Notes: a model not told the origin generated them from the letters alone. A stretch of DNA of 64,000 bases from Bacteroidales bacterium (GCA_021647205.1 JAKIVD010000019.1:1-64000); one strand, 5' to 3'. Positions 21,710 to 61,280 are shown, numbered from the stretch's first letter. A program made the numbers and translations.

Positions 21710-22114
21710 CTACTCCTTTTCAAAATGAACAACCATCTTGCCCATGCTCATTTCCGATTCGGCGACAATCTGCTTGTCCTTGTACACGCCCAAATCAAAA
21801 GGTTTGGCCAGTTTATCGGAATCATCAAAAACATACGTAATTTTCTGGTCATCAGGATTCAGCTGCCATTTGGCTTCGAAAGTGTTTCCGAGGGAGATGA
21901 TCACCATTACCGAATCGTTCAGTATCTTGAAAAAAGTTTGGTTTTGTGTTTCCACCACTTGTTTGATGGTCTGGGGTGTAACACGGGCCTCATCAAAATC
22001 CGTCTCAACTTCAACTACCTTCCAGGTACCAATCAGTTTACTTTCGGGGGTAGTTTGGCAGGAAGCCAAAAACAGCATAGCGAAAATGCCAAATCCAAAT
22101 ACTACGTTCTTCAT
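21710..22114 (-). CDS. Small lipocalin-like lipoprotein
   Basis: A 134-residue protein with a signal peptide and lipobox LFLASCQ at about residues 14-20. The rest begins LIGTWKVVEVE, a common opening of small lipocalin-like lipoproteins in Bacteroidota, and is beta-rich. It probably binds a small hydrophobic ligand or acts structurally at the envelope; this is inference. It is a single gene, convergent with the stress-protein gene and divergent from the glycosyltransferase. Confidence 0.75.
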   Translation of the reverse strand: MKNVVFGFGIFAMLFLASCQTTPESKLIGTWKVVEVETDFDEARVTPQTIKQVVETQNQTFFKILNDSVMVIISLGNTFEAKWQLNPDDQKITYVFDDSDKLAKPFDLGVYKDKQIVAESEMSMGKMVVHFEKE

Positions 22115-55478: not shown

Positions 55479-55712
55479 TTGATAATGAGAACTATAAAAT
55501 TACAAATACCAGACAATGTTGATTTGAAAACATACGACCTTTCAATGATAGTCGCCTCAAAATTAGATGAAGACGGAATACTATCATCCGGACAGGCAGC
55601 AAAAGTAGCCGGCCTTTCAAAAAGAACATTTATTGAGTTGCCTGGTAAGTATGGAGTTTCTGTTTTTAGCACCTCATTATCTGACTTAAAATCTGACATT
55701 GCCAATGCCTGA
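55479..55712 (+). CDS. UPF0175-type small protein, antitoxin-like
   Basis: A 77-residue protein (ATG at 55479; another ATG at 55485). The C-terminal half SGQAAKVAGLSKRTFIELPGKYGVSVF matches the UPF0175 family in its helix-turn-helix-like part. UPF0175 proteins are usually encoded directly before a PIN-domain (DUF3368) toxin and are regarded as antitoxins. Here the stop overlaps by eight bases a short frame that looks like a toxin scar, so this may be an orphan antitoxin. Confidence 0.8.
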   Translation: MIMRTIKLQIPDNVDLKTYDLSMIVASKLDEDGILSSGQAAKVAGLSKRTFIELPGKYGVSVFSTSLSDLKSDIANA

Positions 55713-56115: not shown

Positions 56116-56142
56116 TGTAACAAATCGCTACCTTGCCCCGTC
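56116..56142 (+). promoter_or_regulatory. ECF-type promoter of the sigma gene, copy 1
   Basis: TGTAAC (56116-56121), 17 bases, CGTC (56139-56142) followed by TTA. It is unlike the vegetative TTTG/TAnnTTTG promoters of the window and almost identical in layout to the site at 59611. I infer that the ECF sigma factor downstream drives its own gene from it. Confidence 0.65.
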
Positions 56143-56173
56143 TTAATTGAATAGCAGATTTTACTTTTTATTG

Positions 56174-56659
56174 ATGACCATAAACGAATACAACCGCTGT
56201 GTTGACGAATTCTCGGATGCCGTTTACCGCTTTCTGTTAAAGAACAGCCGAAACGTGGAATTGGCGCGCGACCTGGTGCAGGATTCGTTTCTGAAGTTAT
56301 GGCTCAAGCGAAAAGGAATTGATTACAATAAAAGCAAGTCCTATTTATTTACGACTGCCTACCACACACTAATTGATCACGTAAGAAAACTCGACAACCG
56401 ACAAACTGAAAACGATTATGAATTGGACACTGCCATCACTGAGCACGGATACAGTGACTTAAAAGAAATACTGGATTTTGCAGTAGACAAACTCCCTGCC
56501 ATCCAGCGTTCGGTGGTTTTGCTGAGGGATTACGAAGGCTATTCGTACAAAGAAATCGGGGAAATAACCGAACTGACAGAAGCACAGGTGAAGGTGTATA
56601 TTTACCGGGCAAGATTGTTTTTAAAGAAATTTATCGGGCGTCCGGAAATGGTGATTTAA
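56174..56659 (+). CDS. ECF RNA polymerase sigma factor
   Basis: From ATG 56174 the protein has 161 residues. Region 2 is at about 13-75 (ELARDLVQDSFLKLWLKR, SYLFTTAYHTLIDHVRK) and region 4 at about 100-152 (LPAIQRSVVLLRDYEGYSYKEIGEITELTEAQVKVYIYRARLFLKK), the expected two-domain ECF structure. The anti-sigma-like gene follows after 12 bases. A matching ECF promoter upstream suggests autoregulation, and another copy at 59611 suggests a local target gene. Confidence 0.94.
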   Translation: MTINEYNRCVDEFSDAVYRFLLKNSRNVELARDLVQDSFLKLWLKRKGIDYNKSKSYLFTTAYHTLIDHVRKLDNRQTENDYELDTAITEHGYSDLKEILDFAVDKLPAIQRSVVLLRDYEGYSYKEIGEITELTEAQVKVYIYRARLFLKKFIGRPEMVI

Positions 56660-56671
56660 TAAAAGGAACAA

Positions 56672-57733
56672 ATGAAGATTAACAGAAACAACTACGAAGT
56701 CTTTCTTCTCGACTACCTCGATGGCACGCTGGATGCTGTTTTGGAAGTGGAGCTGATGTTGTTTCTGGAAGAAAACCCCGATATCCGGGAAGAAATGGAA
56801 GGACTTGAAGAAATCTCACTCCAAAGCCAAAATATCCGTTTTACAGGGAAAGGTTCGTTGAAAAAAACCGAAATCAAAACCATTGCCGGGATTGGGGAGG
56901 AAAACTTTGAAGAATACTTTGTTGCCTTCTACGAAAACGACCTTTCGAAAAAACAGCAATCAGGACTGGATCAATTTCTGAAAGCAAACCCACAACTGGA
57001 GGCAGCGTTTAAACTTCATGGAAAGTTAAAGCTGCAAAAAGACGAGTCTGTGGTTTATCACCCTAAAGAAGATTTAAAAAAGAAACCGGTCATTGGTGTC
57101 TGGTGGATTGCCGGTTCCGGGGTTGCTGCTGCCATCGCCCTGCTCTTTGCCCTGTTCAACTTTATGCCACCTGACAAAGTAAATCAAACCGGGCCGATGG
57201 TGCTCGTTCAACTTACCCCTAAACCACCTCACGGCATTTTAACAACCGACATCCCTTTAATTTCCGGGGCCAGAAAAGAATTAGCTGTTCAAGCAAAATT
57301 GGGCACCATGGAAACACCGGCTTTAGAAACAGTGAATATTTCGGAGATAAGCCGCAGGGAACTTTTAATCAACCTGAACGAAGAAATAGCATCCACCACA
57401 CTTGTCCTGCATTATCGCAGCAATGGGTTTTTAGCTTCTGCAACGGACGAAACGAAAGAGGAGGAAAAGAAAAAGGGTGTTCTTGGCCGTATTCTGAGCC
57501 GGAACCTGAAACTTCTTGCTGAACGTTTTCCCGAATGGGGCAAAAAGAATTCATCTGATCCTGCTTTCGTGAAAATTCTGGATGGCAGCATCATTGCTTT
57601 CAACACCCTTACCGGAAGTGAAGTTGAAATGACAAAAGTTTATACCATAGACGGGCGACTGTCAGGTTACCAGATTGAAAGCGAAACGCTAAACATCAAC
57701 CGCAGCATTCCTGAACCGGGGAATGGGGAATGA
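56672..57733 (+). CDS. Membrane-bound anti-sigma factor-like protein
   Basis: A 353-residue protein. The N-terminal 130 residues are cytoplasmic and acidic with anti-sigma character (EVFLLDYLDGTLDAVLEVELMLFLEENPD and a second similar segment, FYENDLSKKQQSGLDQFL). A single membrane helix lies at about 141-164, then a periplasmic domain of about 190 residues. I infer that it holds the ECF sigma factor at the membrane until an envelope signal acts on the periplasmic part. It is co-transcribed with the sigma gene. Confidence 0.8.
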   Translation: MKINRNNYEVFLLDYLDGTLDAVLEVELMLFLEENPDIREEMEGLEEISLQSQNIRFTGKGSLKKTEIKTIAGIGEENFEEYFVAFYENDLSKKQQSGLDQFLKANPQLEAAFKLHGKLKLQKDESVVYHPKEDLKKKPVIGVWWIAGSGVAAAIALLFALFNFMPPDKVNQTGPMVLVQLTPKPPHGILTTDIPLISGARKELAVQAKLGTMETPALETVNISEISRRELLINLNEEIASTTLVLHYRSNGFLASATDETKEEEKKKGVLGRILSRNLKLLAERFPEWGKKNSSDPAFVKILDGSIIAFNTLTGSEVEMTKVYTIDGRLSGYQIESETLNINRSIPEPGNGE

Positions 57734-57866
57734 TTTGTACACCCCTAAATTTCTTTTAATGAATGTAAAGCAGTTCAGTAATTGTTTTTGCTATTTCTGT
57801 TTTTATCTTAAATGTCACTTGTTTTTATAAGTTATTCTGTGTTAATCTGCGTTTAAAACTATTAAT

Positions 57867-58982
57867 ATGAATCAGTCCGGTTTTTTAACTGTTGACGAGG
57901 TTGCCAAAAACCTGAAAGTAACACGTCAAACTGTTGCCAAGTACATTAAGAATGAAGCGTTAAATGCGATAAAAATCAATAAAAGCTATCGAATAGCTTA
58001 CCGGGATTTTGAGCTTTTTATTGCGAGAAATTCTATTGTCGGCGAACCACAAATAAGCTATCTGAAGAAAAGTAAAAACTGTCTGTTGGATTATGCTGAC
58101 AAAACTGACAAGCTTGAGATACTCCATACAAACACCAAAGGGGTGTTCAAGTTAGTAGAAAAAAATCATCATCTACAAGACAATAAATTTATTTTTGGCG
58201 ATAACTTCTATGTATTAAAGCATCTCTTGCATACGCACCGGAATAAAATTGACCTGATTTATATTGACCCTCCATTTGGAACAGGGCAGGATTTTAGCTC
58301 GTTCAATAATGACACGGCTTATTCTGACAAATTAGTAAATAGTGATTTTTTAGAATTCTTAAGAAAAAGGCTGGTTGTGTTACGTGAGTTGTTGTCAGGG
58401 TGCGGGAGTATTTACCTTCACATCGACAAAAAAATCGGGCACTATGTTAAAATCATTATGGATGAAATTTTTGGATACAATAATTTCATCAATGATATTA
58501 CAAGAATTAAGTGCAATCCCAAAAATTTCTCCCGCAATGCTTACGGTAACTTTTCGGATATGGTTCTTTTTTATGCGAAAGAGAGGGGCAACAATATTTG
58601 GAACGAGCTTAAAGAGCCGATGTCTGAAGAAAAAAGAAAAGAGCTTTTCCCAAAAAAACACGCAAGCTTAGGCTATTATACAACAAACCCTATTCATGCA
58701 CCCGGCAAAACCATCAACGGCGACACCGGAAGGGAATGGAAAGGTTTAATGCCTCCGCAAGGCAGACATTGGAGGTACAGCAGCTTTAAAATTTATGACC
58801 GTATTGTTCGTTTTTTTTATTGCCCATGGAAAACCGTCGATAATACCTATTCTGCGCACATCTCCTCTTTGGTTTCTACAGAAATCCAGTACTTCATCAA
58901 CTTGCTTGTCCTGATTTCCCCCCGGAGAACCAATCCATTTCGCTTCGCCTACAACATAAGTGCCATTTACTTTGGCAACTAA
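57867..58982 (+). pseudogene. Truncated type III-like (beta-class) adenine methyltransferase with HTH N-terminus
   Basis: The frame has 371 codons. Residues 1-60 are an excisionase-like helix-turn-helix (FLTVDEVAKNLKVTRQTVAKYI). The methyltransferase part has catalytic DPPF at 134-137 (LIYIDPPFGTGQDF) and continues normally to GREWKGLMPPQGRHWRYS near residue 306. After that the sequence no longer resembles the family and is in fact the antisense of the facing endonuclease gene. In this class the SAM-binding FxGxG motif lies C-terminal, so it is lost and the enzyme should be inactive. AT-rich compared with its neighbours. Confidence 0.85.
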
Positions 58983-59537
58983 ATCGGGCCTTTTATTGAG
59001 GTTTTGGTTTAGCACTGCATTAACAAATGACTTCCCGTCTTCTTCGGTTGCATCCAGAATATGGATTCCATTTTTGACGTTCTCAAAATCATTTATTGGG
59101 AGAAGATTGAAGGCTTTTCTTAACCACACAGAAAACATCGGTCCCATCTGTGTGTTCAATTTAGGGGCTGACTCTAAACTAAAAACCGTTTCTTCAGCCG
59201 TCATTGCATAAAGAGAAGTTGCAATTCTTTGGATTTGAACCGGATTGTTTTCGATACATCCCTGAATATTTTTTATAAGAAACCATAAAGGTTCATCGTA
59301 CGGAAACTTTACCTCAGTTTTCAAAATCTCTAATAATTCTCTTGTTCACCTTCCCTGATGTGCTGAAATAATTCTTCTCCTGAGTTGCTCATTTAACCTT
59401 TCCGGCCTTGCCGATTGCAATGGGTACACACTTAAAATATTATCGAGATAAGGCGTGTTTTCAAAAAGTTCAATACTGCGCAATATCCACCCCTTTAACT
59501 CATCCCTGTCATTTCCGATATCAATACGTCTTTCCAT
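58746..59537 (-). pseudogene. Broken restriction endonuclease with an in-frame stop and lost 3' end
   Basis: Reading from ATG 59537, 63 codons are followed by TGA at 59346-59348, and the same frame then continues without a shift for 199 codons. The continuation holds a PD-(D/E)XK nuclease core (KRPDLVAKVNGTYVVGEAKWIG). The N-terminal part reads MERRIDIGNDRDELKGWIL. The C-terminus runs into the facing methyltransferase frame at about 58780, where both genes lose family character. It was presumably the partner of that methyltransferase. One nonsense change plus one deletion explain what is seen. Confidence 0.75.
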
Positions 59538-59610
59538 GCTAACAATAATTGCATACAAAGATGGGAATAAAGTCTAAAGAAGCAAGTATTTGTATTAAAA
59601 TACCAAGTCC

Positions 59611-59637
59611 TGTAACTAATCGCCTGCCTGTTGCGTC
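59611..59637 (+). promoter_or_regulatory. ECF-type promoter, copy 2
   Basis: TGTAAC (59611-59616), 17 bases, CGTC (59634-59637) followed by ATA. The spacer also shares AATCGC with copy 1 at the same position. It drives the head-GIN/outer-membrane-barrel gene, making that gene a likely target of the ECF sigma factor. Confidence 0.65.
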
Positions 59638-59684: not shown

Positions 59685-61280
59685 ATGAAAATTCAAAAAT
59701 TGCACTCCTTTATTTTCCTCGTAACCTTACTGTTTAGCCTGCCACTGTCAGCGCAGGAAAAAGGCAGTGGCCCAATCAGCAAACAAGAACGACAAGTTGG
59801 TGTATTTACTGCAATTAAAACGGGCGGTGCTGCCGAAGTCATCCTCATGCAGGGCGGAGAACAAGGGGTGGTTGTAGAAACCAATGCCAACATCCAGGAC
59901 AGGGTCGAAGTTTTCGTCAGGGAGAAAACCCTCCAGATGAAATTGAACAATGTGAAAAACTACAGCGTACTCAAATTGTACATTACAGTTGCTCAACTGG
60001 AAAAGATACAGGTTTCGGGCGCTTCGGATGTGAAGTCCATCGACACGCTGAGGGGGGAAAGCCTGCGTCTTGTGGCCAGCGGCGCTTCCGACCTGCAATT
60101 GCTCGTCAACTACAACAACATATCCACCAAAGCGTCAGGCGCCTCGGTAGTTCGTTTAAAAGGGAAGTCTGCCGCTCACAGCATCGAAGCCAGCGGCGCC
60201 TCGGTGGTGAAAGCCAAATTGTTGTCAACAACAACAACCGTGGTAAAGGCCAGCGGTGCCAGCAGTTGCTTTGTCAACGCCAAAACCAACCTTACTTACC
60301 AGGTTTCGGGCTCGTCGGATGTGAGCTACGTAAACAAACCGCAAACCGTCATCGTGGAAAATAAAAAAGGCACGGAGAAAGTTGTTATCATCAGGGACTC
60401 CACCCACACTTCCAATTACTATAACGACAACGATACCACTTCGGTTAATGTCGGCTCGCTGCATGTTGAGGTGGTGGAAGGCGACACGACCAAGGTAACG
60501 GTCGGCAGCCACACACTGATTGTTGACGATGACGGAAACGTAAAATGGGAAAGAAGTAGAAAGCCACGGTTCAATGGTCATTGGGGGGGATTCGAGTTAG
60601 GAATCAATGGCTACGTAACCCCTGGTATTCATACCAACTGGGGTGTAGAAAATGATTTCCTCAACCTGCGCTACGAAAAATCCATTGCCGTCAACCTGAA
60701 CATTTACGAGCAAAACATCGCCCTGAACAAAGACAAAAATATCGGGCTTGTCACCGGGATTGGCCTGGCATGGAACAACTATCGTTTTAACCAGCCAACC
60801 TATCTTGAACCCCTCAGTTCAAACATTGAGGGTTATTATATGGAAGGTGTTTCTGTCAGGAAGACCAAACTAACTGCCATGTATATTACTGTCCCCCTGC
60901 TTTTTGAAATGCAAACCAAAAACCCGAAACGCATCAAACGGTTTTTCTTTTCTGTGGGGGGATTGATCAGTGCCCGCATCAGCTCGCATACCAAGATTTA
61001 TTTTAATGAAGCTGCTAAAGCGTACAAATTACGGGTTCCCGACAGCGATCCGGCCGAATACAAACCGGGAACTTATGTAACACCCAATATTTACGACAGG
61101 AACATTGTTAAGAGCTTCCGAAGCTTTTATTTACAACCGGTCAAACTCGATGCTTCTTTACGGATTGGTTACGGCATTCTGAGTATATTCGGCACATACT
61201 CGCTGAACACTTTCTTCCAGTCGAATCGGGGCCCAAAACTTTATGCCTGGACAATAGGTATAACACTGGTGGGCTGGTAA
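59685..61280 (+). CDS. Head-GIN (DUF2807) domain fused to an outer-membrane beta-barrel
   Basis: From ATG 59685 the protein has 531 residues. The TTG at 59631 lies in the promoter. A signal peptide ends LSAQE near residue 25. Residues about 45-235 are a head-GIN-type beta-helix with repeated VSGASDVKS, ASGASDLQL, ASGASVVRL and ASGASVVKA turns. Residues about 300-531 are a PorT-like outer-membrane barrel (FELGINGYVTPG, LVTGIGLAWNNYRF, VPLLFEMQTKNPKR). The adhesin-like helix would stand in the periplasm or outside. It is probably controlled by the ECF sigma factor upstream and ends in a strong terminator. Confidence 0.9.
   Translation: MKIQKLHSFIFLVTLLFSLPLSAQEKGSGPISKQERQVGVFTAIKTGGAAEVILMQGGEQGVVVETNANIQDRVEVFVREKTLQMKLNNVKNYSVLKLYITVAQLEKIQVSGASDVKSIDTLRGESLRLVASGASDLQLLVNYNNISTKASGASVVRLKGKSAAHSIEASGASVVKAKLLSTTTTVVKASGASSCFVNAKTNLTYQVSGSSDVSYVNKPQTVIVENKKGTEKVVIIRDSTHTSNYYNDNDTTSVNVGSLHVEVVEGDTTKVTVGSHTLIVDDDGNVKWERSRKPRFNGHWGGFELGINGYVTPGIHTNWGVENDFLNLRYEKSIAVNLNIYEQNIALNKDKNIGLVTGIGLAWNNYRFNQPTYLEPLSSNIEGYYMEGVSVRKTKLTAMYITVPLLFEMQTKNPKRIKRFFFSVGGLISARISSHTKIYFNEAAKAYKLRVPDSDPAEYKPGTYVTPNIYDRNIVKSFRSFYLQPVKLDASLRIGYGILSIFGTYSLNTFFQSNRGPKLYAWTIGITLVGW

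Follow-up and report, generated by a model that had tools for sequence, protein, structure and literature searches.

A probable two-unit ECF sigma factor circuit with an OmpA-like barrel gene as its second unit in a Bacteroidales bacterium and its relatives

Described ECF systems and the layout of the locus

In P. gingivalis, the sigma factor PG0214 is followed by a putative anti-sigma factor, PG0215, and the two are co-induced (PMC10101095). The PG0214-PG0218 operon resembles the locus described here in this gene order and differs from it in continuing with a DUF4252 gene (PMC10101095). The Das/Dma system of Bacteroides (ECF21) likewise consists of an ECF sigma factor, an anti-sigma factor and an outer-membrane barrel and is linked to the state of the envelope (PMC13088901), and in Phocaeicola an antibacterial toxin triggers a response of a related pair, probably by way of envelope stress (PMC9308784). 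Dma fuses the barrel to the anti-sigma factor, whereas in the present locus the barrel is encoded by a separate gene with its own promoter, often together with a head-GIN domain, and the anti-sigma protein of 353 aa carries no barrel, so that the one-chain architecture of Dma is absent. The SM6 class of Flavobacterium psychrophilum comprises ECF promoters with a CGT -10 box that were mapped to transcript starts, and one of these promoters stands before a sigma/anti-sigma operon, as here; the SM6 targets that are listed are type IX secretion and other genes, with no head-GIN protein or comparable barrel among them (PMC9723704). In one survey, recognised class I anti-sigma domains lie beside only 6% of Bacteroidetes ECF sigma factors (PMC7406223). 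Compared with the class I protein RslA, whose structure was solved with sigma L (3hug), the anti-sigma protein studied here differs in having two tandem modules and no Pfam match. The two halves of the target protein resemble the DUF2807 putative adhesins 3pet and 3ljy and the OmpA barrel 1qjp, respectively; known structures hold only one half, whereas most relatives join both and others have the barrel alone. Searches of the literature for the motif, for DUF2807 with a sigma factor and for head-GIN with an anti-sigma factor returned no prior description of this regulon among the papers covered.

The window, that is, the whole stretch of 64,000 nucleotides that was analysed, contains the features collected in Table 1. 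The preliminary description had reported two TGTAAC-N17-CGTC sites of identical spacing, and both were found on the plus strand at the positions it gave. The window sigma factor consists of sigma-70 regions 2 and 4 only (Pfam). Its closest curated family is the GFO_1088/PG0214 family (NF058625), in which membership was ruled out by a score of 106.5 bits against a cutoff of 130; an ECF Hub group for it may already exist. A real counterpart of P. gingivalis PG0214-PG0216 is present elsewhere in the window genome (L092, contig C3, 369-2430, minus strand), with a PG0214-type sigma factor scoring 167.8 bits against NF058625, the same promoter motif, and, after the sigma gene, a short putative anti-sigma factor and two small DUF4252-looking proteins (these names were assigned partly by eye). 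Upstream of the sigma gene in the window, a small UPF0175 gene, likely encoding an antitoxin-type regulator, lies between lepA and sigma (55479-55712).

Table 1. Positions of the promoters, genes and insertion in the window
Feature	Position	Strand	Basis or remark
Promoter of the sigma/anti-sigma unit, TGTAAC-N17-CGTC	56116..56142	+	Ends 31 nt before the sigma ATG
ECF sigma factor, 161 aa	56174..56659	+	Pfam Sigma70_r2 and r4_2
Putative membrane anti-sigma factor, 353 aa	56672..57733	+	Position, architecture, conserved adjacency to sigma
Insertion relative to same-genus G002 (approximate bounds)	57756..59607	.	Homology stops at ~57755 and resumes at ~59608
Truncated Mod-type DNA methyltransferase with N-terminal HTH	57867..58982	+	Pfam HTH_17 and N6_N4_Mtase
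Tsp45I-family endonuclease pseudogene	58746..59540	-	Pfam Tsp45I on both pieces
Promoter of the barrel gene, TGTAAC-N17-CGTC	59611..59637	+	Ends 47 nt before the ATG; kept before barrel orthologues, linked or unlinked
Exported protein, 531 aa: signal peptide, DUF2807 beta-helix, linker, OmpA-like 8-strand barrel	59685..61280	+	Pfam, AlphaFold2

The two units are separated in the window by an insert of 1.85 kb. In the same-genus relative G002, the distance from the anti-sigma stop to the barrel start is only ~100 bp, with the promoter between them. This comparison with a relative in which sigma, anti-sigma and barrel genes are adjacent, which had been proposed as a check, bears out the earlier suggestion that restriction-modification debris was inserted into the unit, and the inserted piece is indeed degraded. 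Its methyltransferase and endonuclease genes converge. The likeness of the Mod fragment to solved Mod proteins (EcoP15I Mod and other chains) ends at about residue 315 (~58812), and the endonuclease gene is broken by an in-frame stop at 59346-59348; a frameshift was ruled out by translation. A 7-bp repeat, ATTTGTA, near the ends of the insertion was judged to be due to chance. Both promoters are intact, so the regulon may have come through the insertion unharmed.

The shared promoter in the window genome and in relatives

No further TGTAAC-N17-CGTC site was found in the window, and the preliminary description had likewise noticed no other clear copy. Allowing spacers of 15 to 19 nt added only one match (21977-22004, N18), which lies inside a coding sequence on the opposite strand, and shuffles of the window gave a mean of 0.24 matches to this relaxed pattern. 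The scans of the whole 3.53-Mb window genome were pattern searches only. The bare pattern with spacers of 16 to 18 nt had 14 sites, whereas the reversed pattern used as a control had 37, and the genome as a whole is therefore not enriched in the bare motif. Of the 12 sites other than the two window promoters, 9 fall within coding sequence. The remaining 3 look like promoters: two stand ahead of further ECF sigma genes and one ahead of the gene of an NtrC-type response regulator. The last of these (L091, C17:25350-25375) has a counterpart in a relative (L168, G020): both are TGTAAC-N16-CGTC sites ~75 nt before the response regulator gene, share the sequence TGTTCGRAATCGTC and may represent a different conserved element. 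Taken by itself, the evidence from the window genome would make a modest case.

The AATCGC within the spacer, to which attention had been drawn, is common to both window promoters, and an extended pattern including it matched exactly only at these two places in the genome; however, it is not kept in most relatives, which rules it out as a promoter element. The element that relatives do retain is TGTAAC with an A/T-rich tract after it. The two spacers of a given genome were also examined for fine co-variation, and their within-genome likeness was not significant (p = 0.067); the CGTT boxes common to both promoters in G004 are anecdotal, as G023 differs.

Conservation was assessed in two sets of sequences. 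Sixty relatives were searched for orthologues of the barrel, anti-sigma and sigma proteins, and scanning their upstream regions revealed TGTAAC-N16/17-CGT ~25-50 nt ahead of almost all sigma orthologues and almost all barrel orthologues; the rare exceptions mostly had one base changed, for example AGTAAC. In addition, 80 named Bacteroidota loci (708 kb) were gathered by searching with a sigma alignment; a few of their genomes also belong to the set of 60 relatives. These loci held 109 motif sites, 40 with a 16-nt and 69 with a 17-nt spacer, while any other spacing from 10 to 24 gave 0-1 sites each and the reversed-pattern control gave 3 sites. All except two of the sites (107/109) were directly upstream of a sigma gene (69) or a barrel gene (38), at a median distance of ~31 nt, and the motif occurred within 120 nt upstream of sigma in 73 of the 79 named orthologous loci. 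Judged by its sequence, the sigma promoter has the features of an ECF promoter, with an AAC-containing -35 and a CGT-type -10, and would be autoregulated.

From the relatives we derived a stricter motif, TGTAACWWW-N13/14-CGTC-NNA. In six relatives (G001, G002, G011, G013, G017 and G022) it had exactly two matches genome-wide, namely the sigma and barrel promoters, and this held in G022 even with the two genes on different contigs. The window genome had the two promoters and one match inside an opposite-strand ORF. A stand-alone DUF2807 gene also has the motif in G004 and G019, and some relatives have a few more sites before unrelated genes, for instance those of ABC transporters. Sigma and barrel lie ~1.57 Mb apart in G004, whose genome is a single contig, with their promoters kept, and in many draft genomes the barrel gene is on another contig than sigma, again with its promoter. 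Of 37 family genomes, 31 have sigma together with the full barrel and 3 have neither of them (Fisher p = 0.005, a test limited by assembly gaps and shared descent). The other 3 genomes are mixed: in two fragmented drafts (G012 and G024) the barrel was found but no sigma was detected, and the third has sigma with a barrel-like gene ~1 kb away. Considering that this pairing is kept across dozens of relatives even when the genes are far apart, it looks like a real dedicated circuit.

The anti-sigma factor and the barrel protein

The 353-aa protein matched no Pfam family, and only 1 of 46 anti-sigma orthologues matched zf-HC2, weakly. Its identification as an anti-sigma factor is therefore based on its place, its topology and its conservation beside sigma rather than on a family match; in relatives the gene always adjoins sigma. 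Two three-helix modules (residues 1-67 and 74-140) are followed by a membrane helix (~143-164), then by a disordered stretch (171-267) and finally by a small domain at the C-terminus. Residues 3-67 align with residues 74-139 at 99.4% probability (E 8e-22), neither module aligns with the C-terminal part, and AlphaFold2 predicted three confident helices in each copy and the membrane helix at 143-164. A three-helix module without a Pfam family is thus duplicated in tandem over the first 140 residues. A profile search of PDB sequences with the protein found no match, and Foldseek on its model found none at E <= 0.001. The second module aligned weakly with the RslA anti-sigma domain (3hug; Z 5.0, 53/56 residues), a likeness that is only suggestive because small helical folds often reach such Z values, and a match of this kind would need a higher score to be trusted. 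On the predicted topology, the envelope-sensing role given to the system in the preliminary description is plausible. In one relative of the same genus (L071, G001, contig C220, 3414-4513), the anti-sigma gene is interrupted by stop codons (3 TGA), so sigma may be unrestrained there, or the stops may be an assembly error.

The 531-aa protein matched Pfam DUF2807 (114.5 bits against a gathering threshold of 24.2) and OMP_b-brl_2. In its AlphaFold2 model, the DUF2807 beta-helix aligned with 3pet at Z 26.6, and the barrel aligned co-linearly with OmpA (1qjp) at Z 12.2 over 132/137 residues. The linker before the barrel is conserved. In many orthologous units, the one of Draconibacterium orientale among them, the same promoter precedes the gene of a ~300-aa barrel without head-GIN; the constant protein of these units is the C-terminal OmpA-like barrel, and the head-GIN domain is optional. 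In OmpA, both ends of the barrel face the periplasm. As the barrel is OmpA-like, both of its termini would then be periplasmic, which would probably place the head-GIN domain in the periplasm. The earlier reading of the protein as an outer-membrane adhesin is not supported, as the head would probably lie on that side of the membrane and many units have a barrel and no head; the word adhesin goes back only to the Pfam name.

Further DUF2807 genes were observed near such promoters. In two relatives (L033 and L035, in G007 and G021), the barrel gene is immediately preceded by another, shorter DUF2807 gene, and the motif stands before that first gene, which makes the target unit of these genomes an operon of two genes. 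In the window genome itself (L093, contig C4, 1557-4677), a TGTAAC/CGTC promoter is followed in a row by a sigma gene, a gene for a 190-aa putative anti-sigma factor, a DUF4097-like gene and a DUF2807 gene (names assigned partly by eye). It follows from this unit that beta-helix surface or periplasmic proteins recur as ECF targets in the genome.

The proposed circuit and its alternatives

The comparative genomics supports the small regulon of the preliminary description as far as an autoregulated sigma/anti-sigma unit and a barrel gene sharing its promoter are concerned, but not the adhesin. We consider it likely that the locus encodes a dedicated two-unit ECF circuit in which sigma, once released from its anti-sigma factor, drives its own operon and the gene of an OmpA-like barrel. 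Following what ECF systems generally do, we infer that the window sigma factor reads both promoters. An anti-sigma factor anchored in the inner membrane would hold sigma in the cytoplasm through one or both helical modules, and an envelope signal at its periplasmic part would release it. Free sigma would bind TGTAAC as the -35 and CGTC as the -10 element and transcribe its own operon, providing positive feedback together with fresh inhibitor. It would also transcribe the OmpA-like outer-membrane barrel with its periplasmic head, which would stay in the regulon after an insertion or relocation because it has its own copy of the promoter.

A resemblance of the two sites by chance, or as the functionless remnant of a duplication, would agree with the lack of enrichment of the bare pattern in the window genome. 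This is highly improbable, since both sites, their spacing and their distance to the start codon are strictly conserved across many genera, and the near-exclusive placement of the motif before sigma and barrel genes in the named loci, against the few control sites, rules out a chance motif. Crosstalk between ECF sigma factors is the main rival, because further ECF operons have the bare consensus in front of them: in the window genome these are the PG0214-type operon on contig C3 and the sigma/anti-sigma/DUF2807 operon on contig C4, and the CGT-box class of Flavobacterium psychrophilum may serve several ECF sigma factors (PMC9723704). TGTAAC/CGTC might then be a generic promoter of several such factors, with overlapping regulons or with the barrel driven mainly by another one. 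We regard this as unlikely, given that the strict motif singles out exactly the sigma and barrel units in six relatives, that the many other ECF sigma genes in these genomes are without it, and that sigma and barrel are for the most part present or absent together in the family.

The other alternative concerns what the barrel does. It could be output and sensor at once, its periplasmic part contacting the anti-sigma factor, so that the two genes act as the single chain of Dma does. The Dma chain combines an anti-sigma domain with a membrane helix, a disordered tether and, at its C-terminus, a barrel (PMC13088901). Like kinds of parts are divided here between two genes that would be regulated together: the anti-sigma protein has a disordered stretch in its periplasmic part, and the conserved linker precedes the barrel. 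None of the 67 anti-sigma ORFs, of which the longest has 462 aa, is a fusion with a barrel or long enough for one, and we hold this reading to be unlikely. The fullest version of the proposal, an undescribed envelope-stress circuit with a tandem-module anti-sigma factor and essentially one target, whose barrel reports back as in a split, two-gene counterpart of Dma, is likewise rated as unlikely.

For the dedicated two-unit circuit, which we prefer, sequence analysis yielded a predicted promoter, a candidate regulon of two units and a putative anti-sigma architecture that are kept across many genera, among them Draconibacterium (D. orientale), Maribellus and Tangfeifania. With a promoter of its own before each unit, such a regulon can outlast the insertion of genes and their relocation. 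The anti-sigma protein suggests a class that is missed by current domain libraries. The locus thus offers a ready test case for how Bacteroidota link the state of the outer membrane to transcription.
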